A stretch of DNA of 64,000 bases from contig OX485806.1 in the NCBI GenBank assembly GCA_950295325.1, forward strand, positions 54,493,169-54,557,168, given 5' to 3'. The position numbers and the translations under genes were made by a program. Positions 74-49,454 of the stretch are shown one piece after another; positions within the stretch are counted from its first letter, which is position 1; every line of letters starts with the position of its first letter. The notes beneath the pieces were generated by a model, which was not told the DNA's origin, made no database searches, and saw only the letters and a program-made list of their open reading frames with translations. The DNA comes from Polytrichum commune. Lineage: Eukaryota > Streptophyta > Polytrichopsida > Polytrichales > Polytrichaceae.

Positions 74-3851
<3,778 letters not shown>

Positions 3852-5284: not shown

Positions 5285-5422
5285 AAGCTCTCTAGAGACC
5301 TGCAAGTTTTATCTTTTCTTGACTGGAGGTGAGACCTTGCTACGAAGTGAAATTTTTGGTTTCTTCTCCCTTCTCTTAGATCTCATCCCAACTATAGACA
5401 ACTTAGAGGAAGATACATCATC

Positions 5423-27604: not shown

Positions 27605-27710
27605 TGTCGTGTAAATACCGATCGTGTGTCACTGTAGCTTGAGTACCAACCACCACTAACAAACAACACTAAAACATAGCAAGGTCACACATGAACAACA
27701 CATCTCGACA
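27605..27710 (-). repeat. Probable 3' LTR of the DNMT-carrying gypsy element, only 106 bp
   Basis: The block starts TGTCG and ends CGACA, a perfect 5-bp inverted terminal repeat, and directly follows (on the minus strand) a polypurine tract. An LTR this short is unusual for Ty3/gypsy. No second copy was found beyond the gag end, so this rests on position, TG...CA ends and the polypurine tract. Confidence 0.6.
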
Positions 27711-27720
27711 TGCCCCCCTT
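27711..27720 (-). promoter_or_regulatory. Polypurine tract of the DNMT-carrying gypsy element
   Basis: On the minus strand AAGGGGGGCA immediately precedes the TGTCG that opens the putative LTR. Such a tract primes plus-strand DNA synthesis in LTR retrotransposons. Confidence 0.7.
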
Positions 27721-27905
27721 AGCTGACTATGAAGTCCCACCAAGCAGCTAGGACCAAGTCAATCCAAGGGTATGGATAATGAAGGATTGCTCCGCAACCA
27801 ACTAGTGTAGCGAATGTCATCCCAAGGAACTGTAGGTTGGGTGCAATGTGAGCCCCATCCTTAATCGCCTCTGATGGTTGGCTATCAGATTCCGCAGAAT
27901 TAATT

Positions 27906-28952
27906 TCACCGCCTCATGTTGATTGCGTTTCTAAGCCATAACTCCTCATCTTCTATTTGGGCAGGCACAAGATGATGAAAACCACACAGGATCATTAAGT
28001 ACGATTGGTGGAAGCACCAAGTACCGAAGATCCTCGACAGCGAGGACAAACTCCACTGTCCAGATGGTAAAGAAGTCAAGGGTGGCCTCAAACATGCCAC
28101 GTGCCAACCACGTTGACACTGATCACACAAAAACATAGTAGCCGCTCCTTTCTTCTCTCCACACACAAAACATGAAAGACCCTCTGGCACAACGGCCAGT
28201 TTAGGATGAACTGTACCCTCAATGGGTAGATGATATGGGTCACAATTTTTGGAATGCTCGCGATATTCCCTGCCATCCGTGCCTTCCAACAACAACAAAC
28301 CACTCGGCAACACCTCCTTCACCCGAAGGATAGTGCGCCCCGCCTTGACATCCAATGTCGTAGGCGCCTCACGTTGGAAATAAACATAATCCCCTTGCCG
28401 GAATCTTCGCAACTGAGGTCGGTAAGCACCACTGCGAATGCGTGCATAACGCAATGTGTCACGGTGCTGAGCAATGGACAAATTCTTCATGGCCATAGGC
28501 ATGGCCCTCTGGAAGAATTAAGTCCGCTCCTGCAAACACTTTGCCCAAATGTTTGGGTCATCCAAGTCCACAACATGATATAGTTTTTCCTGAATAAAAC
28601 TCGGGAGTATAGGCTCACGTCCATACAATAACTGATACGGGCTGTAGGATGCCAAAGAGGCCTGCCTACTAAATCGATAGCCCATAGCAATCCATGGCAA
28701 CATAAGGTCCCAATCCCGGTGGCTTCTTCGAAGTAATCCATACTTCCTCAAGCCACGCTTGGTTGTCTGAACAACCCGTTCAGCCAAGCCATCCGCCTCC
28801 GGATGATCCTGAGAGGTGGTGCGGTGATCTATGAGCGCCTTAGTGCACAACTCCTCAAAGGCACCAAGGAACTCCCTCCCTTGGTCCGTCAACACCTCAG
28901 CCGGTGCTCCAAAACGTGCCAACACACAATCCAAAAAGGTAGCTGCAGCCAA
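27906..28952 (-). pseudogene. Ty3/gypsy integrase core end, C-terminal domain and PHD finger
   Basis: The frame 28952-28518 carries the second integrase Asp in LTDQGREF and the Glu in GLAERVVQ, then LLYGREPILPSF. The next frame (28502-27906) holds an integrase C-terminal module (RRFRQGDYVYF...VLPSGLLLLEGTDG) and then a PHD-type zinc finger: Cys111, Cys114, Cys126, Cys129, His134 and Cys137 in CFVCG...FLCDQCQRGWHVAC. The last CxxC pair (CPRC, near 28040) is present only after a one-base frame change beyond SGQW. Chromoviral integrases end in a chromodomain; a PHD finger, a family that often reads histone H3 tails, could play a comparable targeting role. Several frame breaks make this copy inactive. 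Confidence 0.83.
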
Positions 28953-30262: not shown

Positions 30263-30271
30263 CCCAAGACC

Positions 30272-31120
30272 TCATGGAATAATCATATGACCTAGATATG
30301 CTAGTCGGTCATGGAAAAACTTGCACTTGCCATGGTACAAGCGCAATCCCCACCGCCGTAATCGCTCAAAAACGACTTGAAGATGCTTTACATGCTCATG
30401 TGGTGTTTTGCTAAAAATGATCATGTCATCAATGTAACATCGAGCAAAAGGCAAGCCAGAGAGAACTTGGTCCATCACTCTCTGAAATTCAGCAGGCGCA
30501 TTCTTAAGGCCAAATGGAAGAAACTTCCAATGGTATAGTTGATCCTTCCCATCATGATCAACTCCCCAAAATACGGTCTTTACCCGATCTCCCATAAGTA
30601 ATGAAAGTTGGTGATATCCGGATCTCAAGTCCAAGGTGCTAAATACCCGAGAAAATCCGATGGCATCGAACAACTCTTCCAGGATTGGCATGGGATATCG
30701 ATCCGACTTGGTCTTCCGATTAACTGGACGGTAATCCCCACACATCCGCTTCTCCGTCCAATTGCCAAAGATATCCTTCTTCAATGGCATAACCGTAGTA
30801 CAAGCATACTCCCCGTTGGAAAGTTCGAATAGCCCTGCTGCTAAGAGCTCTCGGCAACGAGCCTGAATGCCAATCCGCTCGGAAACACTGAGCCTGTAAG
30901 GTCTCCGAAAAATGGGATGGTCGTCTTCCAACTGAATGTGGATAGATTTTCCTTTATAACCTTCAAGATCCTGAAGGCTAAAAGCAAAACACCTACGGTA
31001 CGAGCGAATGAATACCTTTCGTGCCTCAGCACCAGTGAGATGAGGGCCTAATTCCAATGGCCAATCATCAAACTCTGTAGTCTCCCTCTCCACCAAAGGA
31101 GAACCACTTGATGCTGGCAT
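30272..31120 (-). pseudogene. Ty3/gypsy reverse transcriptase of the DNMT-carrying element
   Basis: An open frame of 282 codons covers the RT fingers and palm: MCGDYRPVNRKTKSDRYPMP, FSTLDLRSGYHQL, FLPFGLKNAPAEFQRVMD, and the catalytic box YIDDMIIFS, followed by the thumb GLRLYHGKCKF and YLGHMI. All active-site aspartates appear intact. It is out of frame with RNase H just downstream and separated from the methyltransferase upstream by about 290 bases of broken linker. Confidence 0.93.
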
Positions 31121-31412
31121 AGACTCTAATTGCTAATGAGAAGAGGGGACATTGACCATGCCCCCAGTCTCGGTGTTAGTACTACAGTCTAGCATTTCTT
31201 CATCACCACTAATATGTGATGATGAAGCCACCACCGGAGGCAAAAAAACCGAAGCAGTGTAAAAATGTTGAGCTCAAAGCTCCTCCATCACATGTTGCTC
31301 GAATTGAAAAATTCGTTCGGCTTCTCCAACCATGGTGTGAATTCCCTCCTCCATGGGTGTGGACCGCTGTGCCCCCTGACCAGAGTCTTGTTCCCCCAGA
31401 GACAACCACTGG

Positions 31413-32196
31413 TCACCACGATGCCCTTTGCAATGAAAGGCATAAAACAACAGTCCACACCATGGTATGAATATCCATGGCTTGGCCCAACACGAAGTGT
31501 CTTCGGCCCTCAGAAAGGCCGGGAGCTGCGGTGGTGCCAATGCGGAATCCCATAGTACGCTCCCATTCGTCAACCATTGGTTCAATGTGGGTTTTGGTGT
31601 GAACATCCCACACCATACCCGACCCCCGATCGCGAAAAGCGAAGGACTGTGGAAACGTCATAAATGTGGGAAAGGCCCGCCGTGGTGCCCCACTTTATTG
31701 ACCAATGCCAATGGGGGTAAATCATCTCGAACAACCGGCAAAGAAGTCCGGTTTGGATCCAAGATGTCATCCACCTTTTGATCAAAAGGTGGAGGCACTG
31801 CAGAAAATGTTGCAGCTAAAGTAGATGACGGTACGAGATTGGTCCAAATTCACCGAGGCCGGTGGGCATAAGAACCAATGCTCGCGGCATCCACAAAAAT
31901 GGGATCTCCAAGGTGTTGACAAACATAATGATCGCCTTCCAACACCTTGTCCTGAGAGTCTCCCAACAAAGGTACATTCTCGAAAATATACCCTGGAGGG
32001 GAAGGTTGGTGGAAAAACCACCACTGCATGAGGCATATGAGGTCCCAAAATAGACTAGACCGAGAATCCTCTAGTCCTCCGCCTGCTCGAGCACGTGAAT
32101 GGCCTTGGCATGGCCATCCCGCAATCACCATATCCACCGAGCCCAAGTGTCGTAAGTCGGCCTCACTGATGAATGTGACATCATGAGGGAGACGTG
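31413..32196 (-). pseudogene. Retrotransposon-encoded C5 cytosine DNA methyltransferase, motifs IV-X
   Basis: On the minus strand, after SEADLRHLGSVDMVIAGW, comes the catalytic PCQGHSRA (motif IV, Cys at about 32108-32110). Then follow YIFENVP (motif VI, about 31975), DAASIGSYAHRPR (motif VIII-like) and, after two frame breaks, EWERTMGF (motif IX-like) and VLGQAMDIHTMVW (motif X-like) at 31413-31661. These are the signature blocks of C5 DNA methyltransferases in canonical order, so it is not a circularly permuted DRM-type enzyme. Similarity in the last block to DNMT3 is possible but unproven. It is the right-hand continuation of motif I at 46.0 kb, separated by the nested insertion. Downstream (minus) it runs towards RT. 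Confidence 0.86.
32192..32196. repeat. Target-site duplication ACGTG, left copy
   Basis: It is identical to 45859-45863 and marks the insertion point of the 2.96-kb LTR-like element inside the methyltransferase reading frame. Confidence 0.88.
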
Positions 32197-33503
32197 TGTG
32201 GTACTTTTGGGCCACCCCCTTTCGAGGGAGATTAAAAGTATCACACAAGCCCTTCGGTGAAGATGGCCTGCATTTGCAGGCGCCCAAGCCGAACCTGGAT
32301 GATAGGTGTATAACATGAGTAGTTAGATTTTTAAGGGAGATTAAATATGCGTCGTAGTACCTCCGGAGGTTGGACCTTAGTTTTTTACTAGTGTGGCTTT
32401 AAACTTCACTAACCAATTTCATATCTAGTTCTAACCTTAACCTACAACCTATTCTACGCGCAGATGTACCAGCCTTGAAACCAAGGCAATCCTAATTTGT
32501 GAATTGGGATGGTTCTGATACATCCAACTGGGTGTGACTCATACCACCCTAACTCAACGAACGGAATAACGACAATTTGATGGACCATTCAATTCTTCCT
32601 ATTTCTTTATTTAGTTCTATTTAGTTTTCTAAGCGGGGGAACTTGGCCTAAGTCCCACCCTTCACACAAATTCCTTCTTAATTACTTACGTTTGTCTGTA
32701 CGTCCTAACTCACTACATTAACATATTAGGCATCACCCCTTATCTGGTTGGTGCACCCCTTACCTCGGAACCTTCTAAGGCCTCGTGCAGGTCCTTTGAA
32801 GGTTGAGTGACATCTCAAACCCATTCGAATATCAATGGTTCGAAGGGTGGTATCACTCTACCGAGTTAAGTTTCCGATTCGGGTCTCTTGCCAACAAGGG
32901 TTCACGATTTATTTTGTATGTTTTGATTGTTAAATGTGTTTACACTGGATAGACCACGAAATGCAACTCAATGGGATCAGGGTGACGGGTGACCTGTAGG
33001 TTCAACCTGTTGCGCAATCTACATAAATTGGGGCCATTACTCCTAATCTATGGGGCCAACAACATAATAGTCGATTCGCGGGTCATTAACCCCACCTTTC
33101 CATCGACAACATTAAGAGTGGTTATGTCGGTGATTAATCTGACTTACCACACACGAAACTTGCTAATAAATGAAGCTACTACCACAAAACATACCAAGGG
33201 CCCCGAAAACAATGGAGTTGGGTATTCCCTTGGCGGTCAAGTGGTCAAGCCACTTGACCTTACGAGATAGGTGAGTGGGTTCATAGATGAGTACCTTAGC
33301 CGCGCTCCCTCCAACCCTAAATGGAAGGCTAGCGTTAGTAAATTTACCTCAATTCTCCTCGGTTGATTTGGGCTCGATGGAGGCCGAGCCGCTACCTCCT
33401 TCCTTGCTCCACTTCCCGAGCGTCGACCTTGCCTCATTCTTTGTAACTAGTTTGGTAGTAAGCGTACCTTAGTTAACAATTAAAATGTAAAGTGTTTATT
33501 CTG

Positions 33504-33508
33504 TACTG
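33504..33508. repeat. Target-site duplication TACTG, left copy
   Basis: It is identical to 44208-44212 and directly flanks the TG of the 5' LTR of the young gypsy element. Confidence 0.93.
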
Positions 33509-35257
33509 TGTGAGCCCAAAAGGGTGCCCACATTTAGTCTTAGACCCTTGAAACGTTAGTTGATGCACTTTGAAGTAGCATGTTACTTCACAAAAATATA
33601 AAAAGAGTGAAATGTTAGTCTTAGAAGTACCATGTTGTAAGAGGCTAGGATGTGAGTTGTTATTGTGTTTTTACCTTCGGAAGGATTTGAGTGAATGAGG
33701 ATAGGTAAGGAGAACTTGGATTGAGTAGTTAGTGAGTAGGCTAGTACAAATGGATGGAGACAACCAAAGTGACTCAAGAGGCAAGTGCATTCGAATTGGG
33801 ATGAATGGAGGATCACATGGAGCGCACAAGTGGACCACCTCATCATGGCCACTTAATGGGGAAGGCCCAAGGAAGAATGCAAGGTGGAGGATAAGCAAAT
33901 TCTCAAAGCACCAATCAAATCACGAGTTAAGCATCGTGGTTTGAATTAAGTGGTGAGCGACGATTTGGGAAAGTAAGGGGAGAAAGTTATGGCGGCGGAA
34001 AGCGAAGGAGGCTAAGTTTGGGTTGAAGCATCCCAAGTTTGGTAAAGTGCGGTAGGTAGAAAGCCAAGGCTAGTTAAATGTTCGAATTAGGATCCTTGTT
34101 GATCATTTGAGGGAGGAAGACTTAGAAGATAGGATTGGCGCCTACTAAGTAGGAGGAAATCTCAAGGGCTTATCGTGAGCCTTGAGGGTGCTCACCCCCT
34201 CAAGCTTACTATATAATCCTTCATTCTTCCCTCACTCATCCTCTCTTTCCTTTGTGCTCCAAGGCACCCCACGAGTTATAAGTGTGGGTGTGGGAAGCCA
34301 TATTGGAGCACATGTGTGTGCTTAGTTTTTAGTTTGAGAGCCAAGGCTTGTTAGCCTTGAAGAGGGCTTGACCTCTTGGTAGAATTAGTGTTGACGTGAA
34401 GGATTTTAAAGTTAATTCATGATTCCAATTTGTGGTACTTAAAGTTCATGTTTTGAATACACGTGGTTGCAAGTTCCATGTTTAAGAGTTGAGCACTTGA
34501 TGTTGTGATGAGTGCAAAAATATACTTGTGTGGGTTAGTTAGTCTTAGTGAAGTTAGGAAATTCTCTCTCCCCCTTTCCTCTCTAGGATTTTAGGATTTT
34601 AGGATTAGAGAAGAATTGTGTGATTAGAAAGGGGTTGTTAGTAGAATTAGGGAAATTAGGTAGGAAGATTAGTTAAGGGCTTGAATAATTAGTGAGGTAG
34701 TTGGGGATTACAACTACAAAGTTGTGGGTTCATGAAGGAGCTGGGTTTGTTTAGTTAGAAAATAAAGAGCTGGGTTTATGAAGGACCTGGGTTTGTTTAG
34801 TTAGAAGCTAAGGAGCTGGGTTTATGAAGGAGCTGGGTTTATGAAGGAGCTGGGTTTGTTTAGTTAGAAGCTAAGAAGCTGGGTTTATGAAGGAGCTGGG
34901 TAGATAGCCTACCTAATTAGCTCATAGACAAGTAGTTAGTTACATTATGCTAGTTAGTGTTATGTGTGGCTTTCACAAGTAAATGTATTTGAGATTGACT
35001 ATAGAGAATAGTGTTTTTTTAACACTTGCATCCTCTCTTTAAAAATAAACCACGTGCACAAATTAATGGAGAATGTGGAGCACTCTCGCGATGGCAAGAC
35101 AAAGGAAGCAACGACCAAAATTAAATCCAAGACCACTTGAAGGGTGAACCTTGCACTATGGACTCATCCAAGTCCAAATCCAATACCGCGGAGGAATGTG
35201 AGCCCAAACCCACTACTCGGACTACGGACGCTTAAGGGTGGGGGGTTTGGCCTCACA
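33509..35257 (+). repeat. 5' LTR of the young gypsy element
   Basis: It starts TGTGAGCCC and ends GGCCTCACA; the terminal TGTGAG/CTCACA is inverted. A TATATAAT box lies at 34210-34217 and is probably the core promoter. A GCTGGGTTTATGAAGGA-type minisatellite occupies 34730-34905. Three open frames of 70-89 codons inside it recur in the 3' LTR and are not genes. Confidence 0.96.
34730..34905. repeat. Minisatellite inside the LTR
   Basis: Words AGCTGGGTTTATGAAGG and GGGTTTGTTTAGTTAGAAGC alternate about five times with small changes. The same array is present in the 3' LTR at 43680-43855. Confidence 0.88.
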
Positions 35258-36166
35258 TAATTGGTGCGTCCGCCGGGAGCGAAGCGGAAGGTAGTTACAA
35301 GACTTGGAGGCGACTAGGAGACTTGGAGGCAACTAGGAAAAATTGGAGACACAAACTTGAGAGAAGGGAAGGAGCACCCGAAACTCGGTAAGTATTCTCT
35401 CTTTGGGTTACATTTGAATTCATTGTATTTCAACTATTCCTTGGAATGAATTGCATTGTCAATTACGCAAATTCATTTTTGAGGAAGGAGCGCGGCGAAG
35501 GTACGTCCTCAACCTTTTGGGGATTTGCTAAGAACTTAAAATGAACCTATAACCGAGTAGCTCATTAAAACATTAGAGGGTAAATTCACCTTAGGACATT
35601 GAACTTTGACACTCACCTCGGGGTGAGTCTCAAAGTTTTGGGAGTTGTCATTTCATGCTCTAGATTAAATTAATATTTCACAAAGTTTATGGTGTTGTTA
35701 CATTGAGTCACGATTGAGGGGAGTGCTAACTCACAGGGGGATGCGATTGCTCAAGGTATGTTTATTTCTTCAAAGTGAACTCATTAACTAATTAAGGAAT
35801 GCCTTTTGTACTCGTGATTGTTGTTATCCGTTGTAGAGGGTAATTCCCGAATTGTGGATGGTGTGAGAAGTTGAAGGGTGAAGCCTCGACTTTTAACATA
35901 ATCTACTCGGAAGGTCACCCCCTCACAATCGGTATTGTGGTGAGTGTTAATTTGCGGGAAGGTGCGGAGGTGATGCTCCGACTTAACCAAAAAATTAACA
36001 TGAACATGCCTATCCCCTATTGGGATTCTTTCACCTAAGTGGGCTTGCAGGTTCTTTTCCTCACCTCCTAAAAAAAATTATAACCACACCAAGACAAGTG
36101 AAAATATTAAGAGGGGAATTGCTAGGATTATGTGTGGTCAAGTGAGGGTCGATCGATTCTTATGGA
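35258..36166 (+). other. Leader with primer-binding-site-like sequence
   Basis: Directly after the 5' LTR comes TAAT and then TGGTGCGTCCGCCGGGAG (from 35262), where a tRNA primer-binding site beginning TGG is expected. I cannot assign the tRNA. The rest is an untranslated leader of about 900 bases before the first long ATG; no separate gene is seen. Confidence 0.6.
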
Positions 36167-39100
36167 ATGCAAGGTAGGACTCGCTCACAAAAACCAAGTT
36201 TGATAGTAGGACTAGAGAAATCTACTCGAAAGAGGCGGTCCTCTAAAATCAGTGATAGATTAGAACAAGATAATGTTAGAATAGAGAGTTGTTTGAACGT
36301 CGAACCTAGGACTAGGTCAATTCTAGACACCTTAGAACTTGGAGCTCAACTTGAAGAGGAGATCACTCCCTCCAAATTGAGTGGTGAAACTTCTTCGGAA
36401 AATTACACACTTAGAGAAGAATTCCCGGTAGAAGTTGATAGGGGATTGTTGAATAGTTCACCGGTCACCATGGCTGAGGAACGGGGGATGGATCCACCAC
36501 CCATACCCCCAATTCCGCCCATACCTCCTATACCTCCAATAGACCCATTGGTTAGGCCAAGAGGCCTACCAATTGTGGTTCCACAAAATTTAGCGGCGAT
36601 GGATATGCCATCTCATCTCCCTAAATTTTATGGGACCAAGGATGAGGACCCCTCTCGGCACATGGAACGGTATATCGAACGGTTGGCTAGCTTCCTCATA
36701 ACCGACCCGGGTTATTGGTTAGTGTGGTTTCCTACCACTCTAGAGGGGGAAGCCTATGAATGGTATCGGGATCATGCCGAGGGACATTTTAGGGGATGGG
36801 AACAATTACAAAGGGAGTTTCTTAACGAATTTAGGCCGGAAGTGGGTCAAAGTACCGCATTAAGGGCATTGTCGTCATTGAAGCAAGGAAGGGAGGAAGA
36901 AATTTCGGCTTACATTAGGAGGTTTGATTTAGTGTGCACTAGATTTGTGGGTACCATGCTCAACGATGACACGCTAAAGCAATTTTTCATTCAAGGGTTT
37001 TTTAAGTCCGGAACTATTAGGGGTGTTCTAGAAAGGAATCCCTTGACCTTGGCGGATGCCAAGCGTGCGGCTAGAGATATTGAAAACTTGGATAAAGATC
37101 ACGAAAGGCTATGGAGAAGGGAGGATGAATTGATCCCACAATTCATCCCCATACGCCCTAGGGCGGTAGCGGTAGAACCCGCTAAGTATGAGAACCAAAT
37201 TCCATATGCCATTGTGGACACCGGTCCCCGACCTTTAGCGGTTAGGGAACCGGCACCTCTTTTGGCACTACCGGCCCCTAGAACGGATCCACACTTGGAG
37301 GAGGTTGAGAGAAGACTAGGTGCTAGCCAACTAGGATTCCAAGAGGCTATGATAAAACAAATGCAAAGCCTCACGGATCAAATGTCATTAATGATCCGGA
37401 GTCAACAACCGGGGCCTCCACCCCCGGTTGAGTCGGGTAGGCATTCTTCCGGATTATGGTGTGTCCAATGTGGCCAACCGGGCCACACGCGTCAATTTTG
37501 TAGAAGTGGACAAAACCGTGACCAAAGAGGAAACGGTAACCCACCTCAACAAAATCAACGAGGTCAAGCGCCACCTCACTATGGAAATGGAAGCAATAGA
37601 GGACCACAACCTAGAGGGCAAGGTGGCCAAAATTTAGAGAAGAAGGAATTTCATCCCTTTTGTGGAAGGTGGCACGCTCAAGGACAATGTTGGTCCGAAG
37701 GTCAAGAGTTTAATTGTAGCAATTGTGGAGGAAGTCATCCCTCGGATACGTGTCGCCAACCGGACAAAATAATTAATGTCCCTTACCCGGTGGCTAATCC
37801 ACAACAACAAGCAAGGGATAATATGCGAGGTGCTAGGCCACAAGGAGTACCGGCCAATGAACTTAGGCCACCTAACTTATACTATGACCATAGTAATGCT
37901 AGGCAAACTTTTCATCCACCGGCGGGCTTGCAAACTACAACCGGTTACATTCCAATACAAAATAGACAAGGAGTTCCACCTAATGGTAGTAACGGGAGAC
38001 AAGCGCCTCCAACGGATCCGGGACCATCTAACTCCCAAGATGTTAGGTTCATGGATGGAGTGTTGGAGGCCACATGTGATGACATGCTTCCTCTCCCAAC
38101 GAGAATTGGAGAGGAGCAAAGTCAATGGCCTCCTCACACCAATGCTATTACATATGAGTTAGTGAAGGGTAAGGGTGTGGTTGAAGAAGCACCTGCACTA
38201 GCGGTAACTACTAGGGCTAGGAGAGGGGATGCCCCGTTGGAGGTAGGAATAGGAGAGCAAGGAAATTACTCTTCGGATGAAGAGATTAATCTCTCCGAGT
38301 TGGATAGGGTAGCTAGAAGAGCTACTAAGGATGTGGAGAGGGAAAATATAATTTTACAAGATAGGGAGAGGACTAATGCGGTACATGACTTGGATAATAG
38401 CGATGTGGGTGAATGGGAAGGACCGGGGGTTCCCGTAGACGAATTCGACGTAGTGGGTAATTCTAAGGTGGAAAGATCTACCGGGTACGACTTGTGGGCG
38501 GACCTTAGTACACTCAAGGCGGATATTACTTTCGGCCAACTATTGGAAATTTCACCCACGGCAAGGAAAACATTAAAGGAGGGAATGCCGGTACACAAGA
38601 GGATGAGGAAGGTGAAAGCTAAAATAGCCGCTAGGATCCAATCACAAGGTGGAAGAGACGTGAAAGCTATAGAAATAGAAGTTGTTATAGTAGATAAGGT
38701 GGTTCCTAATGTGCTAGTCGACGGAGGGAGTAGTCTAAATATACTACCGGAGGATACTATGAAAAAATTGGGACTTGGACTCACGGGGCCTTCACCTTTG
38801 GTCATAAATATGGCAAATCAAAGTTCGACTACGCCTTTGGGGATGATCAAGGATTGTAGAATGACTACGGGAGGTGAGGAGTACTTCCATGTCATTAAAA
38901 TGCACTCCAACAAGGACACCTTCCCCATTTTGCTAGGTAGGCCTTGGTTGCGGATGGCGAATGCTATGGTCAATTGGGGTGGACCTAAACCATCCATCAC
39001 TTATGGTCCGGAGGGTAATAGGGTCATAGTGTCCATTGGTTCATTAGAAGGATGGATGAAGAAGGAGATGTATTTGCCATTGGAGAAGGAAATTGATGAC

Positions 39101-42100
39101 TTAAATGAGAATGAGATTGGCAAGGCATTGGTGGGAGTCGTCCATCCCGAAGGTCAAAGGGTTGTTATAGATTCGGGCTCGGGAAGTCTAGGTCCTAATT
39201 TTTACAATTATGGGGATAATGGGGATTATGCCCAATGGCTAAGGGAGTACCCCGAGTCCGAGGTTGATGTAATGGTTACATTTCACCAAGTAGGCTTAGG
39301 GAGTGAATTTCCTAGTATTAGTTTAGGAGAGGGCTCATTGTTGGAGCCATGTGAGGTGCTCACCGAGGAAGAGTGGATTAGCGGTGGGTTAACACCTTGG
39401 GTAGATGACGTGGAAGAGGGTGAGGTTAGTTTAATTCATGTAGATGGGACTCAAGAGGAGGATGTGATTATTGAGTCATCGAAATTGGAGGAGCCTTTAC
39501 ATTTCAAGACCACGTCTACGGGGATAGTTGTAGGTCAAGATGTGAAAGATTACCCCAATGTGCCTTCCGATTGGTATCGGAACAAAGAGGAACAAGCACA
39601 TGTGTCGGAAGCGGATTGGCGGTACGTGGATGTGAAATTAAAGGATGGAAAAACCCGACAAATGAAGATGGGCTCCAAATTGGGGGAGAAAGAGGTTAGG
39701 GAGTATAGCAATTTGGTGGATGAGTTTAGTGATACTTTTGCATGGTCCTACGATGAGCTTAAGGGAATTCCTAGGGAAATGGTAGAGCACCGGATTCCTT
39801 TAATTCCGGGGGCGAGGCCAATTAGACAAAAGGAGAGGAGGATGAATCCTCAATTGCAATTGTTGGTGAAAGCGGAATTGGAAAGGTTATTGAAGGCCGG
39901 GTTTATCAAGCCGGTGGAAATCACGGATTGGGTTTCTCCTATGGTCTTAGTAAAGAAAAAAAATGGGAAATTAAGGGTTTGTGTCGACTATAGGAAATTG
40001 AATTCGTGCACACAAAATGATCACTTCCCCTTACCTTTTATCACCTTGTTGCTTGAGGAGGTTGGAGGTCATTCGCGATATACCTTTATGGATGGGTATG
40101 CGGGTTATAATCAAATTTCCATAGCCCTCCAAGATATCCATAAAACGGCTTTTACTACACCTTGGGGTATTTTTGTGTGGGTAGTGATGCCATTTGGGTT
40201 ATGTAATGCCCCGGCTACTTTCCAACGATTAGTAATGTATATCTTCACCGACTTGTTGTTCAAATCCATGACCGTCTTTGTGGACGATTTTAGCACACAA
40301 AGTAATGTGGATGATCACCTACATTGTGTTAGGGAGGCATTGGTTAGGTGTAGGAAGATGAGGTTAGCATTGAACCCGGATAAGACATTTTTTGGAGTGA
40401 ATAAGGGAGTGTTGTTGGGTTATGTTGTTAGTGAGAAAGGTAGAGAACCCGATCCAGATAAGATTGCGGCCATAAGCGACTTGGCAACTCCAACCAATTC
40501 CAAGGGGATCTCTAAGTTGTTAGGACATGTGGGATGGTACCGGGAACTTATTCCTAATTTTTCAAAGATAGCGGTGCCCATTACCCATTTGCTCAAAAAG
40601 GATGTCAAATTCGAGTGGACGGATGCTTGTCAAAAAGCCTTTGAGGAATTGCGGGATAGGTTGAGCACCTATCCGGTGTTGATACCACCCAATTGGGGTA
40701 AAACTTTTCACGTCTATTGTGATGCTAGTAATGTGGCAATAGGGAGTGCGCTTTGTCAAGCAACGGGAGAAAAAGAGAAGGATCAACCTATAGCTTATGC
40801 GAGTAAGCAATTGACCCCCGCCGAAAGAAACTACTCTACAACGGAGAGGGAGTGCCTAGCCATGGTGTTTTCCGTTAAAAAATTTAGGCATTACCTCATG
40901 TGCAACCCGGTTGTATTTTTTGTTGACCACATGGCTATCAAGTATCTAATTAACAAGGCGGAGTTAAGTGGTAGGTTAGCTAGGTGGGTTTTGTTATTAG
41001 AAGAATTCGACTACACGGTGGAATATAAACCGGGTCGTATGCATTTACAAGCGGACCACTTGTCTAGGTTGTCGGAGGAGATAGGAAAAAATCCGGTAAA
41101 TGATATGTTAGTAGATGATAGCCTCTTTGTGGTCACTTCTACACCGGAGTGGTATGCGGGCATAGTGGAATTTCTAACAACCCACAAGTTGCCCAAAGAG
41201 TGGACAAAAGAAGAGAGAAGGAAGGTGAGGGTAAATAGTAGGCAATTTGTTGTAGTGGGCCATAGGTTGTTTAGAAGGGGGTCCGATGGTATTTTACGAC
41301 GATGCGTGTCAAAAACGGAGGTTGAAGCGATTTTAATCGCTTGCCACGATAGCGCTTGCGGCGGTCACTTCTCGGGTCAACTCACCGGTCAAAAAATACT
41401 TAGAGCGGGCTACTTTTGGCCTACACTATTTAAGGACGCCCATGACTATGTAAGGAAATGCGACGCTTGCCAACGGTATGCCCGAGACGACCTTAGAATG
41501 GAGATGCCTTTACATGTATCATTACCCTTAATTCCTTTCGAAAAATGGGGCATCGACTATGTGGGTGAGGTCCATCCCCAATCTTCAAAAGGAATGAAAT
41601 ATATTGTGGTGGCAACCGAGTACCTCACCAAGTGGGCGGAAGCCAAAGCGGTGAAGACCGACACGGCGGAACACGCGGCAACATTTATGTACGAAAACAT
41701 AATTTCGCGGTTCGGGGTGCCGAAGATCCTAGTAAGCGATAGGGGTACTCACTTTTTGAATGACTTGATTAGAGAGATGACAGAGAAATTTAAAATTGAT
41801 CACCGGAAGACTACTCCCTACCACCCACAAACCAATGGACAAACGGAAAGGGTTAACGGAATTTTGGTGAGTATACTACGCAAGACGGTTATAGACTCGA
41901 AGCGGGATTGGGATACGAAACTAACGGCGGCACTTTGGGCATACCGTACAACCTATAAGGTAACTACGCGTGCTACACCATTTTCCTTAGTCTATGGTCT
42001 TGAAGCGACACTACCAATCGAATATGAAGTCGAGTCACTTAGGGTGGCCGTGAGTACGAGACTTACCGAAAGTCAATCCTTACGAAATCGACTAACCGAT

Positions 42101-42397
42101 TTGGAAGCACTTGACGAAGGGAGGAGAATGGCGGCTCAACATATTGAGGCAATCCAAAGAAGGAGAAAGATTACTTTCAACAAACGACATAAGAGAAGGG
42201 CCCTAACACCGGGAATGATGGTCATGATTCAAGACGCACGAAAGCTTGAATTTCCGGCGAAATTCAATGCGGTATGGTTAGGACCTTACCTTGTCTATGA
42301 GGTCTTTCCTAATAATTCAATTCAATTGGAAACGTTGAATGGTGAGCTCTTTCCTACCCGTACATCGGGAAATAGATGTAAGGAGTACGGAGCTTGA
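36167..42397 (+). CDS. Ty3/gypsy Gag-Pol polyprotein, 2076 aa, uninterrupted
   Basis: One frame encodes everything. Gag has a proline-rich PPIPPIPPIPPI tract (about residues 110-125), a capsid-like region, and zinc knuckles CVQCGQPGHTRQFC (from about 432) and CSNCGGSHPSDTC. Protease shows LVDGGSSLNIL (Asp852) and ILLGRPW. RT shows VCVDYRKLNS, TFMDGYAGYNQ, MPFGLCNAPATFQR and the catalytic FVDDF (about 1372). RNase H shows FHVYCDASN, TERECLAMVF, FFVDHMAIKYL and LQADHLSRL. Integrase shows HFSGQ...CDACQR, then Asp in GIDYVG, Asp in VSDRGTHF and Glu in GQTERVNG. The C-terminus (VWLGPYLVYEVF) ends without a chromodomain or PHD finger. All catalytic residues I can check are present, so the protein could be active. 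Gag and Pol share a frame, so their ratio must be set after translation or by splicing. Confidence 0.96.
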   Translation: MQGRTRSQKPSLIVGLEKSTRKRRSSKISDRLEQDNVRIESCLNVEPRTRSILDTLELGAQLEEEITPSKLSGETSSENYTLREEFPVEVDRGLLNSSPVTMAEERGMDPPPIPPIPPIPPIPPIDPLVRPRGLPIVVPQNLAAMDMPSHLPKFYGTKDEDPSRHMERYIERLASFLITDPGYWLVWFPTTLEGEAYEWYRDHAEGHFRGWEQLQREFLNEFRPEVGQSTALRALSSLKQGREEEISAYIRRFDLVCTRFVGTMLNDDTLKQFFIQGFFKSGTIRGVLERNPLTLADAKRAARDIENLDKDHERLWRREDELIPQFIPIRPRAVAVEPAKYENQIPYAIVDTGPRPLAVREPAPLLALPAPRTDPHLEEVERRLGASQLGFQEAMIKQMQSLTDQMSLMIRSQQPGPPPPVESGRHSSGLWCVQCGQPGHTRQFCRSGQNRDQRGNGNPPQQNQRGQAPPHYGNGSNRGPQPRGQGGQNLEKKEFHPFCGRWHAQGQCWSEGQEFNCSNCGGSHPSDTCRQPDKIINVPYPVANPQQQARDNMRGARPQGVPANELRPPNLYYDHSNARQTFHPPAGLQTTTGYIPIQNRQGVPPNGSNGRQAPPTDPGPSNSQDVRFMDGVLEATCDDMLPLPTRIGEEQSQWPPHTNAITYELVKGKGVVEEAPALAVTTRARRGDAPLEVGIGEQGNYSSDEEINLSELDRVARRATKDVERENIILQDRERTNAVHDLDNSDVGEWEGPGVPVDEFDVVGNSKVERSTGYDLWADLSTLKADITFGQLLEISPTARKTLKEGMPVHKRMRKVKAKIAARIQSQGGRDVKAIEIEVVIVDKVVPNVLVDGGSSLNILPEDTMKKLGLGLTGPSPLVINMANQSSTTPLGMIKDCRMTTGGEEYFHVIKMHSNKDTFPILLGRPWLRMANAMVNWGGPKPSITYGPEGNRVIVSIGSLEGWMKKEMYLPLEKEIDDLNENEIGKALVGVVHPEGQRVVIDSGSGSLGPNFYNYGDNGDYAQWLREYPESEVDVMVTFHQVGLGSEFPSISLGEGSLLEPCEVLTEEEWISGGLTPWVDDVEEGEVSLIHVDGTQEEDVIIESSKLEEPLHFKTTSTGIVVGQDVKDYPNVPSDWYRNKEEQAHVSEADWRYVDVKLKDGKTRQMKMGSKLGEKEVREYSNLVDEFSDTFAWSYDELKGIPREMVEHRIPLIPGARPIRQKERRMNPQLQLLVKAELERLLKAGFIKPVEITDWVSPMVLVKKKNGKLRVCVDYRKLNSCTQNDHFPLPFITLLLEEVGGHSRYTFMDGYAGYNQISIALQDIHKTAFTTPWGIFVWVVMPFGLCNAPATFQRLVMYIFTDLLFKSMTVFVDDFSTQSNVDDHLHCVREALVRCRKMRLALNPDKTFFGVNKGVLLGYVVSEKGREPDPDKIAAISDLATPTNSKGISKLLGHVGWYRELIPNFSKIAVPITHLLKKDVKFEWTDACQKAFEELRDRLSTYPVLIPPNWGKTFHVYCDASNVAIGSALCQATGEKEKDQPIAYASKQLTPAERNYSTTERECLAMVFSVKKFRHYLMCNPVVFFVDHMAIKYLINKAELSGRLARWVLLLEEFDYTVEYKPGRMHLQADHLSRLSEEIGKNPVNDMLVDDSLFVVTSTPEWYAGIVEFLTTHKLPKEWTKEERRKVRVNSRQFVVVGHRLFRRGSDGILRRCVSKTEVEAILIACHDSACGGHFSGQLTGQKILRAGYFWPTLFKDAHDYVRKCDACQRYARDDLRMEMPLHVSLPLIPFEKWGIDYVGEVHPQSSKGMKYIVVATEYLTKWAEAKAVKTDTAEHAATFMYENIISRFGVPKILVSDRGTHFLNDLIREMTEKFKIDHRKTTPYHPQTNGQTERVNGILVSILRKTVIDSKRDWDTKLTAALWAYRTTYKVTTRATPFSLVYGLEATLPIEYEVESLRVAVSTRLTESQSLRNRLTDLEALDEGRRMAAQHIEAIQRRRKITFNKRHKRRALTPGMMVMIQDARKLEFPAKFNAVWLGPYLVYEVFPNNSIQLETLNGELFPTRTSGNRCKEYGA

Positions 42398-42458
42398 CTA
42401 GGCAACTTACCCTTGGAGCAAGAGATGTTTGGATTCATCCCCCGATGGTCGCCAATTA
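42398..42458 (+). other. 3' untranslated stretch lacking a canonical polypurine tract
   Basis: Between the stop codon and the 3' LTR the nearest purine-rich run is GGAGCAAGAGATG, about 30 bases away. The bases next to the LTR are pyrimidine-rich and end CGCCAATTA. Confidence 0.6.
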
Positions 42459-44207
42459 TGTGAGCCCAAAAGGGTGCCCACATTTAGTCTTAGACCCTTG
42501 AAACGTTAGTTGATGCACTTTGAAGTAGCATGTTACTTCACAAAAATATAAAAAGAGTGAAATGTTAGTCTTAGAAGTACCATGTTGTAAGAGGCTAGGA
42601 TGTGAGTTGTTATTGTGTTTTTACCTTCGGAAGGATTTGAGTGAATGAGGATAGGTAAGGAGAACTTGGATTGAGTAGTTAGTGAGTAGGCTAGTACAAA
42701 TGGATGGAGACAACCAAAGTGACTCAAGAGGCAAGTGCATTCGAATTGGGATGAATGGAGGATCACATGGAGCGCACAAGTGGACCACCTCATCATGGCC
42801 ACTTAATGGGGAAGGCCCAAGGAAGAATGCAAGGTGGAGGATAAGCAAATTCTCAAAGCACCAATCAAATCACGAGTTAAGCATCGTGGTTTGAATTAAG
42901 TGGTGAGCGACGATTTGGGAAAGTAAGGGGAGAAAGTTATGGCGGCGGAAAGCGAAGGAGGCTAAGTTTGGGTTGAAGCATCCCAAGTTTGGTAAAGTGC
43001 GGTAGGTAGAAAGCCAAGGCTAGTTAAATGTTCGAATTAGGATCCTTGTTGATCATTTGAGGGAGGAAGACTTAGAAGATAGGATTGGCGCCTACTAAGT
43101 AGGAGGAAATCTCAAGGGCTTATCGTGAGCCTTGAGGGTGCTCACCCCCTCAAGCTTACTATATAATCCTTCATTCTTCCCTCACTCATCCTCTCTTTCC
43201 TTTGTGCTCCAAGGCACCCCACGAGTTATAAGTGTGGGTGTGGGAAGCCATATTGGAGCACATGTGTGTGCTTAGTTTTTAGTTTGAGAGCCAAGGCTTG
43301 TTAGCCTTGAAGAGGGCTTGACCTCTTGGTAGAATTAGTGTTGACGTGAAGGATTTTAAAGTTAATTCATGATTCCAATTTGTGGTACTTAAAGTTCATG
43401 TTTTGAATACACGTGGTTGCAAGTTCCATGTTTAAGAGTTGAGCACTTGATGTTGTGATGAGTGCAAAAATATACTTGTGTGGGTTAGTTAGTCTTAGTG
43501 AAGTTAGGAAATTCTCTCTCCCCCTTTCCTCTCTAGGATTTTAGGATTTTAGGATTAGAGAAGAATTGTGTGATTAGAAAGGGGTTGTTAGTAGAATTAG
43601 GGAAATTAGGTAGGAAGATTAGTTAAGGGCTTGAATAATTAGTGAGGTAGTTGGGGATTACAACTACAAAGTTGTGGGTTCATGAAGGAGCTGGGTTTGT
43701 TTAGTTAGAAAATAAAGAGCTGGGTTTATGAAGGACCTGGGTTTGTTTAGTTAGAAGCTAAGGAGCTGGGTTTATGAAGGAGCTGGGTTTATGAAGGAGC
43801 TGGGTTTGTTTAGTTAGAAGCTAAGAAGCTGGGTTTATGAAGGAGCTGGGTAGATAGCCTACCTAATTAGCTCATAGACAAGTAGTTAGTTACATTATGC
43901 TAGTTAGTGTTATGTGTGGCTTTCACAAGTAAATGTATTTGAGATTGACTATAGAGAATAGTGTTTTTTTAACACTTGCATCCTCTCTTTAAAAATAAAC
44001 CACGTGCACAAATTAATGGAGAATGTGGAGCACTCTCGCGATGGCAAGACAAAGGAAGCAACGACCAAAATTAAATCCAAGACCACTTGAAGGGTGAACC
44101 TTGCACTATGGACTCATCCAAGTCCAAATCCAATACCGCGGAGGAATGTGAGCCCAAACCCACTACTCGGACTACGGACGCTTAAGGGTGGGGGGTTTGG
44201 CCTCACA
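42459..44207 (+). repeat. 3' LTR of the young gypsy element
   Basis: It has the same length as the 5' LTR and no difference was seen where lines were compared. TATA-like box at 43160-43167; it ends GGCCTCACA before TACTG. Confidence 0.96.
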
Positions 44208-44212
44208 TACTG
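44208..44212. repeat. Target-site duplication TACTG, right copy
   Basis: It matches 33504-33508. Confidence 0.93.
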
Positions 44213-44388
44213 TAATTTAATCCTAAACATAATATTTATACTTAGTGCACCTAATTATCTTTCCAATGATCTAAAAATCACTGGAATCGGATAAGAAATG
44301 CAAAAGTTATGAGGGTTGGAAGTGTGAGGTCGATTCAACCGACCCTTCCAACCCACCTATATAACTTCTAACTTCAAAAATTCATAGC

Positions 44389-45070
44389 ACATTTCTTATA
44401 ACTTGGGTCTAGGCTTTCCTCATACCATTGGAAAGCTATGAATATGTTCTAACTAGGAAAATTATGACATCAACAGGTTAAGCTAATAGAAATTCAACAG
44501 ACTCCTTGCATTCAATCAAGAAGGCTTAAACTATGTATCTCGCCTTCAACAATTCATATCTAATTCAAATCTTATTCAAATCAAACGTTCTATATGACTC
44601 TGGAGATATATTAAAAATATTTATTTGATAAAATATGTGATTAGAAAGGTAAGCCGAAATGAACCCAGCAGATCCTCTGTAATGCAGCAGTCAACCAAAA
44701 GTTCTCAAACTATGTGTCCCATCTTGCACAATTCATATCTAATTCAAATCATGCTCAAATCAAATGTTCTAAGCCATTTTGGAAAGCTTCACAAAAGTTC
44801 TACTTGGGAAAAATATAACTTCTTGGAATTAAAATTCCTATTTGGGTCGCGGGTCTGATCCAACAGCCGCTACCCACAAGACCACCCAGTTTTTCTACTC
44901 CATCTTTGAAAATTCATAACTAATTGTCACCTTAACCAAATCACAAATGGGAAACGGCTATGGATAGCTATAGGAAATATCTCTAAGAAGAAATTGATAA
45001 GTATCTTGTTCTAGCTTCTGAACTAAGCCTTCAGGGCATTGGCAGATGAGGTCTACAATGCCTCCACTCA
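44389..45070. repeat. Degenerate tandem repeat of about 180 bp inside the LTR-like insertion
   Basis: The phrase AATTCATA(T)C(T)AATTCAAATC recurs at 44389, 44551, 44730 and 44911, spaced 162, 179 and 181 bases. It is followed each time by related text such as CAAATCAAA-GTTCTA and TGGAAAGCT. Four diverged units are visible. Confidence 0.65.
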
Positions 45071-45858
45071 AAATTCTACCATCCAACCTACCTCTACAAA
45101 AGAAGGAATCATTTTGTTGGTGTGTTAATAAACACACATTCTAACTAGGAGAGAGAGTAGAGGAGGTTCTCAAGCCTTTCTTTTAGGCCATTAAGAATGC
45201 ATGCTAAAGGATTTTTTCCTAACTACATTGAAGTAGGGCTTCGCCCAAAAACTAGAAAAAGAAAAAAAGCTACAAGGTGGAAGGATGGATTTTTAAACCC
45301 TCTCACAAAAGGGTTGGACCCCTCCTCCACCGGATCCATTTTTCAAACCCTTTCCCGAAATTTTGGCCCGGGGGTTTTCCCGGTTGAGGTTGCCACCCTC
45401 TCGCCGAGGTGGCTCCGACGGGAAACCTAGAAATCTTTCTAATTTTTCGCCATCGAGTTGGCAAGGGGGCAAGTGGGCAAGTAGCCCCCTTGTTTTTTTT
45501 TTTTTTGTCTTCAAAAGTCTTCAAACTGATTTTGTCTTATTACGTAAAACACCTCTAATAATCTTGTGTGCCTCACACTAACTAATAAACTAACACTTGC
45601 TTAGCTAGCATTTACTAACATTTGCTTAATAGCTAGCATCTACTAATATTTGCTTAGCTAGTTGTTTTTACTAGCTAGCATATTTTTTCTACTTTGCTAT
45701 CTTCTAGCATTACTTAGTTTCATTTTGACCTTCCTTCTTCTAGGCTAAATGCTAAATGAACTAATTTTCCCTAAATTCCCGATCAATTCTAACTTCTAAT
45801 GCTAACATTCTAATTAAAAGTGATCCCACGGAGTGGTGGACCACTCAAAGGGTTCACA

Positions 45859-45863
45859 ACGTG
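45859..45863. repeat. Target-site duplication ACGTG, right copy
   Basis: It matches 32192-32196 and immediately follows the CA that ends the LTR-like insertion. Confidence 0.88.
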
Positions 45864-46057
45864 AAAGACACCCACGAATGGCAGTTGGGTGTAACTGCTG
45901 GGGTATAATACCATCAACTGGTGAAGATGGTGACGAGCCACATGGGTGGACACTAAAGAGTTGTCCATATAGACATATTGTTTGACCGTGAGGCCAACCT
46001 CCTATACGGCTGCTAATCCTGTGCCGATGCCCCCAAACAACTCCACCAAAGTGATCC
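45859..46057 (-). pseudogene. Retrotransposon-encoded DNA methyltransferase, motif I segment
   Basis: Fused downstream of the protease linker, the minus strand reads GITLVELFGGIGTGLAAV, the SAM-binding motif I of C5 DNA methyltransferases (FGGxGxG). A TAG follows at about 46001. The reading continues as EVGLTVKQYVYMDNSLVSTH (motif II-like) and, after a one-base shift, to the ACGTG site where the nested insertion lies. Coding resumes in a compatible way at 32196. The methyltransferase therefore lay between protease and RT of the original element. Confidence 0.86.
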
Positions 46058-46860
46058 CCGTGTTTGGAGGGCGCCACAAAATGGGGCGTGCCAATGTGGA
46101 TAGACTATCCGATATGACTGGTGTGGTAGAACTGAGAGAAAGGACAATGTCCTCACAGTGTTGGAACAAGCCGGAGGAATCACGCCACGGAGGTAGAGGG
46201 TCCTTAGGATGGTGTACCAATGTATGCCTAGGTGCCATCTCTCGTGGGTCTTCAACATCCTCCATGAATGCCAATGACTCCTCCAATAATGCGGATCCAT
46301 AAGGCAATGTATCCACAATAGCACTGCATCCAAAAACCATGGATAATGGTTCGATGGTGGCGGCCGCTGCAAAGGCCACATGAATAAGTTCCCTACGGCC
46401 GTCTCCAACTGACCAACCTGGTCGAATCCAAGCCTCCACAGTCCAGTTGTCCAAACCAAAGCCAAGAGGGTAAAGTGCTTGCTGACCAACTAAAATGTCA
46501 TAATTGGTTGCATCCGTCACCGCACACCTGAAAAGAAGAGGTGCGGGTGAATCTCCAAGCTTCACTTGGAAGCTAAGTTGTAATGGCTCCCGAGTATAAC
46601 CAGTGGCCCGCTCCACGTGGCCAATAGATGTGACGATGGTAAATGGGCATGGAGCCAAGTCGTCGGCTGTCAACCGCAATACCTGCACCAATTTTTTGCC
46701 GATCATAACAGGTTGTGCTCCTGAATCCATCATCACACACTGTAGAACAACTCAAATAGGGTTGCCACGAGCCCGACTGACCATCAAAATGCCAGAATCA
46801 TTCACCATCCGTACAACGCTAGGTCGAATGCCTCGACGCTCACGAGCAGGTCGAGCAGCG
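46058..46860 (-). pseudogene. Aspartic protease and linker of the DNMT-carrying gypsy element
   Basis: The minus frame 46736-46002 starts in a retropepsin: MMDSGAQPVMIG (catalytic DSG, about 46730) and TNYDILVGQQAL (the ILG-like flap partner, about 46500). About 110 residues of linker then lead in the same frame into methyltransferase motif I. Upstream coding (SGILMVSRARGNPI) is separated by a single TGA at about 46750, suggesting one polyprotein before decay. Confidence 0.87.
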
Positions 46861-48881
46861 ACATCTGAAAGATAAGCGGCGCCTGCAGAGGCTGGTGAAT
46901 CATGAGATGAGGTTGGCTCTTGGCCATCTGAGTCGTGTGCGTCAAAAGACGCAATGGCCTCCGCCGCAAGCCTCGCTCGTAGTTTGGCGGCTTCCGTAGG
47001 ATCGTTCGTGGTAGGAATGTCCGCGGTGGCTTGAGCCACAATAAAAGAAAACGGGGATGCCTTGCCTTCCAAAATCCTACTTGCTAGGTGAAAAACCTTA
47101 GTGGGTTGGACATCCGATGACGACCACTCCATCGCTGTAAACAAAGGGGTGTGCAACACTTTGGATGCCAAAGTGTGCACCACGTCGGTTTTCGGATTCG
47201 AAGCCTCCAAGCTTGAATTACGACCACTGATAGATTGGGCACCATCAGCCAATCCAAAAGACAATGAAAGACGTGCCTGGCCAATCTGATCCGCAAGACC
47301 ATTATTCAAAGCATGTAAGTTGTCCACAGACTTCCCTGTGGTCGGAGGCGTGGGTTGTGACACGGTTTGAGCACGTGTCACCACTGCGGAACTCACCACC
47401 TATCCAGAAGCTCCGAACATATAATAATCTGGAATGGAAGAACTAGCCTTAGTTCCGGAGGTAGATGGTAAGTCCAAAATTTGGTTGGATGACGCCAAAA
47501 TTTTGAACCTCTCGTCCAAGACTCCAATCTTTGCCTCCAACGTTTTTTTCCGTTCGAAAGAAGGACGTTTCTCTAGATGGAGAGCGAAGCAGTTCTCCAC
47601 CGCGTGATTGTTCTGCCCACAATGGGAACACTTTAACTGTTTGGGTATCTAATTGCCCATCCCCTTCGCTAAGCCCTTAGCGGGAACAAATGGTTTCCGC
47701 TTTGGAGTAGTGACGGTTTGGGCTTGCCTTTGCTTTGAAGGACAATCCTTCTTAGCATAGCCCGCCTGCCCACAAGACCAATATTGCAAGGTCTTGTCCA
47801 CCTCTGCTTCCGCCAACCCCGCAGCCGCAACCGAAACCTTCCGGGATTTGCTAAAATCCACTAGCATGGACACCTAGTCATTGGCGTCGTGCTGACACAA
47901 GGCATGATTACACTGCTCAACCACGGCAAATGCCTCAGCGAGTGTCGTCCGACCACCAAACTCCATGATGATCATGGGCAACGCCAAGTCAAGGAGGCGT
48001 TTGTCAATCTTTGACAAGAACACCTTCACCAACTGACTTTCTGCGAACACACTTCCAGATTCCCTGGCAAACCTTGCTAACCTCGTGTACATGGTACGAT
48101 GTGTGTCATCTTTCTCTCGTCAAAATTTCTGGATACGCTGCATTTGATCGCGGCGGAAGCCTCCATATTCTTCCTCCAAATGGACTTGGAATTCTTGCAG
48201 AGGATCAAAATCCGGCGGAGCTCCTAAAGAAATTAATGCCGCCTGGGTAGCCTGGACATAACGTGACAGTGGAAGAATGGAGTTTGAAGTACTCGCCGCG
48301 GCGGGAGCAGGACCCATAGCCCTCGGCTCACTAGGAGGAGTTTCCTCCACATCCACCACATAACCTCCCTCTGGTACCTCTGACTTAACCTCAGGAACAG
48401 CCATCAAACTGGAAGTTGCGCCTTCCTTCAATGCGGACACCAATTCAACCCGAGTCTCCTAGTACCACTCCACCTAGCGCAGCTCCATCCAATGAGCATC
48501 CGTCCATTGCTCATAGGTCTGGAGAGCTTTGTGCTCCAAATGCTGTGGTAGAAGCTCGAACGCATATCAATCGTTGACGTTGGTATTGCATTGACGCTTC
48601 TCCTTCATCCATGTTCTGAACCGAATTTTCCAATCTTGCAGGGAAATGGTCCCCGCTCGACCAAAAAATCGGTCCCGGATGCCGCCTCGCGTCTCCTCCT
48701 CCATCTCGTCAAAAGATCCCACCCAAAGGACGTGAGACCGAATGGCAGTCCCCCACGCCGAAGTAGGCTGAAAAACCTCGTCGGATGCTACCACAGGTTC
48801 ACTGTCTAAAAGGTCCAAAGATCGACCTTGCGATGATGCCGGAGATGGAGAACGATAATGTTGGCTCCGAGTTGTAACCAT
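46861..48881 (-). pseudogene. Gag of the DNMT-carrying gypsy element
   Basis: Gag opens at MVTTRSQHYRSPSPASSQGR (48881) and runs through several frames. The capsid-like part includes FGRAGTISLQDWKIRF and EEYGGFRRDQMQRIQKF. A first zinc knuckle is degenerate (YWSCGQAGYAKKDC, lacking the first Cys and the His). A second is intact, CSHCGQNNHAVENC at about 47600. The C-terminal part (47399-46860) is Ala/Ser-rich and leads into the protease. At least five frame breaks or stops make it non-functional. Confidence 0.8.
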
Positions 48882-49454
48882 AAATCCGTAATGGATTTGG
48901 TCACTGGAGCCAACAAACTAAATTAATGTGGTATTAAGGTAAAGGCAACCTGCACCTACAACCACCACCAAACTTATGGTCTGCTGGTCATCAACCTAGT
49001 TTCACCATAAGGAAAAACAAGCACTGCCCATTTGGTGCACACACAAGGGTCTCGTTGGTCATTACTCCGACCTCAGCCCCACAATACCCTATCACAATCT
49101 AGAACAACATAAAATGGGTCAGTGCTGGAACAATCCAGCACAACAAGCCCACCACAGGGGAAGGTACCACAACAAAATACAAGGAACAATGCAATAACAA
49201 CACTAGATCCTCTTCCCCAACACAACACTTAAACAAAAATTAAAAGCGACCGCAACCAACCGGCATCCGCCTGCGGTTGGTGGTCAGAATGAAGAGCCCC
49301 TGTTGCTTAAAAAAATAAATTGTATAAGCACATCTCTCATCTCCCCACCATTAATAAGAATCCCTCCTCACAACAATGCCAAGAATATGTGTTGATAAAC
49401 ATAATTTGACTTTAACAATTCGTCACACAACCCTCAATCAATACCTCAACAATC

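Follow-up and report, generated by a model that had tools for sequence, protein, structure and literature searches.

A 64,000-nucleotide stretch of Polytrichum commune DNA (contig OX485806.1; hereafter the window) carries on its minus strand a dead Ty3/gypsy retrotransposon that encodes a DNMT3-type cytosine DNA methyltransferase (DNMT) at the end of its gag-protease open reading frame (ORF). We regard the identity and architecture of this element as practically certain. We also lean towards the wider reading that it belongs to a Ty3/gypsy family of bryophytes whose two ORFs share one frame, and in which the enzyme would methylate the element's own cDNA. Retrotransposon DNMTs are already known; what is new is a land-plant element with the domain at the end of the gag-protease ORF.

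From 48881 to 28050, the minus-strand ORFs specify gag, protease, the methyltransferase, reverse transcriptase (RT), RNase H, integrase and a PHD finger. The features of the element and of the DNA inserted into it are given below, with reference to an intact relative (L001) and to two related proteins (P0001 and P0002).

49158 to 51032, minus: remnants of the 5' long terminal repeat (LTR) or leader (matches at 49158-49302, 50768-50920 and 51001-51032), from blastn with the non-coding stretch 6636-8611 of L001
46800 to 48881, minus: gag, with start MVTTRSQHYRSPSP at 48881 and in-frame stops; tblastn matches to P0001 and P0002 from residue 1, 48-56% amino acid identity to L001
46350 to 46800, minus: retropepsin-like protease (DSGA..DILVG); 65% amino acid identity to L001, Pfam score below cut-off
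45864 to 46070, minus: first half of the methyltransferase, DNMT motifs I-III, from matches to relatives; one stop and a frameshift
44213 to 45858: right part of insertion C, from its TGTG..CACA ends and target-site duplication (TSD)
33509 to 44207, plus: Ty3/gypsy element B, nested inside C, from its terminal repeats, TSD and one long ORF
32197 to 33508: left part of insertion C, solo-LTR-like, from its TGTG..CACA ends and TSD
31422 to 32196, minus: second half of the methyltransferase, motifs IV (PCQ), VI (ENV), VIII (HRPR.IWTNL), IX and X; PF00145, E 8e-10
31127 to 31135, minus: ORF1 stop TAG with CAATTA (TAG-CARYYA read-through context); TAG CAATCA in L001 at 3489
30272 to 31132, minus: ORF2 RT, in the frame of the main DNMT piece; PF00078, E 2.7e-29, 81% identity to L001
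29600 to 30271, minus: ORF2 RNase H, with a stop at 30274 before it; PF17917 and PF17919, 85% identity to L001
28190 to 29600, minus: ORF2 integrase (H2C2, core and C-terminal part), with a frameshift near 28980; PF17921, rve below cut-off, 77-88% identity to L001
28050 to 28200, minus: ORF2 C-terminal PHD finger; PF00628, E 9.4e-9, 77% identity to L001
27824 to 27870, minus: untranslated stretch just past ORF2; 87-90% identity to L001 over 42-47 nt

In the Pfam scan of the window, DNA_methylase (PF00145) matched the minus-strand ORF 32398-31850 with 39.1 bits (E 8e-10, cut-off 22). RVT_1 (102.8 bits), RT_RNaseH (113.3), Integrase_H2C2 (61.9) and PHD (35.6) were all above their cut-offs; rve (29.2 bits versus 32.6) and the protease (13.7 versus 28.2) were below theirs. 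A single stop-free frame of 249 residues (46751-46002) holds both the protease (DSGA at 46727, DILVG at 46499) and methyltransferase motif I (FGGIGTG at 46037). The motif I piece (45864-46070) gave no Pfam methylase match on its own, but compared with 11 relatives it was 52-62% identical over 60 residues to six of them and 32-45% identical to the other five. The second half of the methyltransferase is 65% identical to P0001 over 177 amino acids; it has stops at 31852 and 31660, and its motifs IX-X (31691-31422) align with relatives in a different frame. One frame, 32398-28889, runs with stops from DNMT motifs IV-VIII over the end of ORF1, through RT and RNase H and into the first part of the integrase. 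As the frame of gag, protease and motif I is broken by nine stops, the window copy is dead, which the initial annotation had also concluded. That annotation had further proposed the minus-strand order from gag to integrase and a frame shared by protease and motif I, and both were borne out, the order by the Pfam domains together with the tiling by relatives described below. Its domain list omitted the PHD finger, and of its zinc knuckles one CCHC is intact (at 47630) and the second has decayed.

Among solved structures, the window RT best matched 4ol8 (128 bits, RT/RNase H), which we take to be Ty3, and 7q5b, Ty3 Gag-Pol (125 bits), the next match having 86 bits. With the order RT-RNase H-integrase, a Ty3-type RT, and gag with CCHC and aspartic protease, the sequence assigns the element to Ty3/gypsy (Metaviridae). 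A DIRS-like element was ruled out, since the Pfam scans found an integrase (H2C2, rve) where DIRS has a tyrosine recombinase. The 5' LTR or leader remnants are 65-88% identical to L001 over 26-161 nt (best E 4e-10 to 2e-3) and reach approximately 51032. Self-comparison of the window revealed no LTR pair belonging to the element and no matching 3' LTR, the 5' traces being seen via L001 only, and none of nine tRNA ends tried gave a convincing primer-binding site.

The methyltransferase is interrupted by foreign DNA at 32197-45858 (insertion C), which has TGTG..CACA ends and is flanked by the 5-bp TSD ACGTG (32192-32196 and 45859-45863). The span 27605-48881, initially annotated as one element, thus has the DNMT element at its two ends and nested foreign DNA over most of its length, and the breakpoints given at 32196 and 45859 proved exact, coinciding with this TSD. 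Insertion C is probably a solo LTR; self-comparison found no LTR-sized internal direct repeat in it. Element B, which lies inside C, has 1751-bp terminal repeats that are 100% identical, the TSD TACTG (33504-33508 and 44208-44212) and a single gag-pol ORF of 2083 amino acids, the features of a young, intact Ty3/gypsy copy. No DNMT match was found in element B, and because its RT region is only 28% identical to that of the Marchantia protein P0015 (51% for the DNMT element), it falls outside the DNMT family. With tblastn, residues 1-987 of the 1354-residue P0002 matched 48881-45864 in one frame, and residues 989-1353 matched 32194-31139 in one frame, leaving a single residue unmatched at the junction; with P0001, ten residues (997-1006) were uncovered there. 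Since P0002 is tiled by both halves, the window copy once carried the complete ORF.

The intact copy L001 is a closed 9285-bp environmental contig (CADCWO010000201.1) whose ends overlap by 127 nt. It is filed under a cyanobacterial metagenome-assembled genome (MAG) and is evidently eukaryotic contamination; together with P0149, which is named after a bacterial MAG, it places the DNMT in bacterial gene lists. ORF1 of L001 (gag-protease-DNMT) starts at 8609, crosses the overlap and ends at 3491, and ORF2 (RT-RNase H-integrase-PHD) follows in the same frame at 3492-6635. The two are separated by TAG CAATCA, and the window has TAG CAATTA at the corresponding place. Seven of the twelve proteins P0001-P0012 terminate in GGM....(S/P)(A/S)T plus one residue; GGMNALSATK of L001 fits this pattern, GGMVNVPSSH of the window comes near it, and P0001, P0004 and P0010-P0012 differ. 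The window stop at 31135 is most likely authentic rather than a product of decay. As far as sequence can tell, the methyltransferase closes the Gag-side ORF, ahead of the stop, rather than sitting in Pol. A CARYYA after a leaky stop is cited as important for read-through in retroelements (PMC3441728; statements from this and the other papers cited refer to the accessible parts of their text). To judge from the shared frame and the stop context, Pol is likely made by UAG read-through.

When 1309 candidates were scored by the DNMT stretch alone in a first protein search, 27 proteins reached E <= 1e-3, 11 of them Marchantia polymorpha gene models. A profile search (7998 candidates scored) added 107 proteins at E <= 1e-5, for a combined set of 134, many of them fragments. 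All family queries were methyltransferases and members without a DNMT were not searched for, so these counts are silent on the frequency of DNMT-free elements with the same pol. The relatives that were read mostly have gag, CCHC knuckles, a DSGA/ILVG protease and the DNMT in that order, and P0015 continues from protease and DNMT into RT and RNase H. Motif I could be located by pattern in 58 of the 134 proteins, 34 of them with at least 150 residues upstream, and a protease motif preceded it by 123-211 residues in 28 of the 34. Among the remaining six, a protease tail was recognized by eye in P0240 and P0246, RNase H precedes the motif in P0027, P0180 and P0193, and P0206 is unclear. The earlier claim that the methyltransferase belonged to the polyprotein is supported by this record of ORF1 in full-length relatives, and L001, the only relative seen with both ORFs intact, has the DNMT between protease and RT. 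The Marchantia models occupy another branch of the DNMT tree than the window copy.

By fold and profile, the best matches of the window DNMT were DNMT3A/B, and no DNMT1, CMT or MET1 chain reached E 0.01 in the structure-chain search. By these comparisons its sequence is nearest to DNMT3 rather than to DRM, DNMT2 or bacterial enzymes, with a predicted DNMT3-like fold; catalytic motifs I, IV, VI, VIII and IX/X are all present. Between the window and L001, codon positions 1, 2 and 3 differ at 25, 17 and 54% in DNMT motifs IV-VIII and at 15, 9 and 44% in RT. The ratio of nonsynonymous to synonymous differences (pN/pS) was 0.33 for the DNMT, 0.29 for the protease, 0.45 for gag and 0.51 for the protease-DNMT linker, as against 0.14 for RT/RNase H and 0.15 for integrase/PHD; pS is saturated in ORF1, so that pN/pS overstates the substitution-rate ratio (dN/dS) there, and part of the window's differences arose after the copy died. 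We rejected the idea that the domain came from bacteria or viruses, as the scores of six phage-collection loci (L002-L007) were 33-35 bits and a DNMT3A fragment searched alongside them reached 73. The best fold match had E 5.8e-16 in BFVD versus 1.8e-19 in PDB; these comparisons leave room for an older viral route. Searching viral contigs with P0003 alone revealed no relative.

Retrotransposon DNMTs in dinoflagellates and the charophyte Klebsormidium nitens, mentioned in the initial annotation, are indeed in print (de Mendoza et al. 2018, PMC5890265), and a 2025 survey gives streptophyte and dinoflagellate cases, citing that paper (PMC12344493). Like the window family, KnitGypsy-Dnmt3 of K. 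nitens is a gypsy-type LTR element, and its DNMT3-type domain has no introns and is under purifying selection. It differs, by its published description, in that its domain is said to lie in the Pol ORF and its repeats are called DIRS-like (PMC5890265); in the window family the domain ends the gag-protease ORF, and a stop of the read-through type follows it at the corresponding position in both L001 and the window. None of the proteins from the two family searches was labelled K. nitens, most having no organism label. The dinoflagellate SymbioDIRS-Dnmt3 and SymbioLINE-Dnmt also encode a cytosine DNMT, but the former has a tyrosine recombinase and the latter is a LINE (PMC5890265), unlike the window family with its Ty3-type integrase. 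Leaky-stop retroelements (PMC3441728) share the stop between gag and pol ORFs; the window family has the DNMT ahead of it, and the element of that paper itself is described without CARYYA. For land plants, Morozov et al. (2019) state that retrotransposon DNMTs are absent (PMC6338049). The accessible text of a 2022 study that mined angiosperm elements for additional domains does not contain 'dnmt' (PMC9289625), and that of a Marchantia methylome paper names five methyltransferases of the host and none of retroelements (PMC5784723). In the literature searched, which held few subscription papers, no description of a land-plant retrotransposon DNMT or its parts was found. This includes the 11 Marchantia models (P0014-P0016 and P0018-P0025), in which, in the six read, the protease adjoins the DNMT and most have gag and CCHC; they are 31-45% identical to the window in the DNMT and 51% in the RT of P0015.

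P0027-type elements, too, have a Ty3-type polyprotein with a DNMT and a PHD finger, but the DNMT sits between RNase H and integrase. The 2143 amino acids of P0027 itself comprise RT, RNase H, DNMT, integrase and PHD, and an additional C-terminal portion weakly resembles D12 adenine methyltransferases, its score (PF02086, E 0.024) lying under the cut-off. On this match, P0027 perhaps carries two methyltransferases in one element; no such second C-terminal methyltransferase was found in the window.

The arrangement suggests the following course. ORF1 ends at the UAG followed by CAR-YYA, and occasional suppression of this stop would yield ORF2. Placed ahead of a leaky stop, the methyltransferase would be made in amounts like those of Gag, enter the virus-like particle and be released by the protease, with reverse-transcribed cDNA as the nearest DNA. 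There, or in the pre-integration complex, it could methylate the element's own cDNA de novo, so that new copies would arrive pre-marked like host heterochromatin; the PHD finger after the integrase could help in target-site choice. We propose own-cDNA methylation as the main role tentatively, as nearly but not quite as probable as its contrary. A fuller scenario, in which bryophyte Ty3 elements kept a DNMT3 since before the main family branches split, as a Gag-level particle enzyme methylating cDNA before integration, is possible but more doubtful.

Several observations speak against this course. The K. nitens enzyme caused no methylation in yeast, a result its authors call inconclusive; the SymbioDIRS-Dnmt3 enzymes were active on CG there (PMC5890265). 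P0161 and P0185 have GWPYQ and thus lack the catalytic Cys; they may be decayed copies or have changed function. Saturation of synonymous sites precludes a dN/dS for the DNMT, and ORF1 changes faster than ORF2 (42-67% versus 77-88% identity between window and L001), through either fast ORF1 evolution or module exchange between elements. The stop context is readable in two DNA sequences only, the window and L001. TAG-CARYYA occurs at 6 of 1877 window TAGs and 2 of 187 L001 TAGs, border sites included, and is not enriched in the window (6 versus 3.8 expected; 20 of 100 shuffles reach 6), so that the weight of the pattern comes only from its position at the ORF1/ORF2 border in both copies. Finally, residue 5 of ORF2 in the window is a Met, which makes re-initiation possible in that copy.

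Expression of ORF2 by re-initiation or from a spliced RNA, to which this Met and the Marchantia model P0015 (possibly a spliced prediction joining DNMT to RT) would point, appears unlikely, as L001 ORF2 has no Met ahead of residue 117 and both copies have the ORFs in one frame with CARYYA between them. We consider it similarly improbable that the host genome is the target, with the enzyme working in trans to raise methylation elsewhere or to weaken silencing. DNMT3-type enzymes methylate chromatin, and the PHD finger of ORF2 is a chromatin-reading type of domain; however, a DNMT forming the C-terminal part of the Gag-protease protein argues for the particle, and the K. nitens methylome is land-plant-like despite its DNMT elements (PMC5890265). 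A domain without catalysis or directed at RNA, serving as a nucleic-acid-binding part of Gag, has an equally small chance. An RNA target has been discussed for the LINE-borne DNMT (PMC5890265), and GWPCQ is replaced by GWDCC in P0180 and by GWPYQ in P0161 and P0185, but GWPCQ is present in 83 and GWECQ in 8 of the 134 proteins, many of which are fragments, an alignment of 44 rows shows conservation of 90% or more over most of motifs VI and VIII, and constraint is protease-like. That a host or bacterial DNMT gene landed by chance in an ordinary Ty3 element, as the broken and split window copy might suggest, is hardly credible given that L001 and other full-length ORF1 proteins hold the domain in the gag-protease ORF and that the window halves tile such a relative.

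Elsewhere in the window, an SRPK gene (1927-3237) is, among the best 120 of 7124 matches, 92% identical to an ENA protein, 70% to Ceratodon (a moss), 62% to Diphasiastrum and 55% to Marchantia. In a midpoint-rooted tree of 28 rows it groups with Ceratodon, the only named member among the 16 rows of that side (support 99/95; long stem of 0.82), with Marchantia, Diphasiastrum and seed plants opposite. This one gene likely places the window in a moss, and with the Marchantia models it agrees with the land-plant genome initially supposed. Fragments at 6311-8622 on the plus strand, read by eye, resemble a degraded Ty1/copia polyprotein; a 39-bp unit is tandemly repeated about 12 times at 20452-20929, and 60421-62190 is a long CACA-rich tandem array with strong strand skew.

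Cytosine methylation is a main weapon of plants against transposons, which makes an element that carries the enzyme a paradox. Since Marchantia, a tractable model, has copies too, one could test directly why a transposon would methylate DNA. From the place of the domain ahead of a read-through stop one would expect an enzyme made at Gag level and bound to the particle, which is open to biochemical checks. If the fuller scenario above is true, land-plant elements would have an epigenetic state as part of their transposition cycle.

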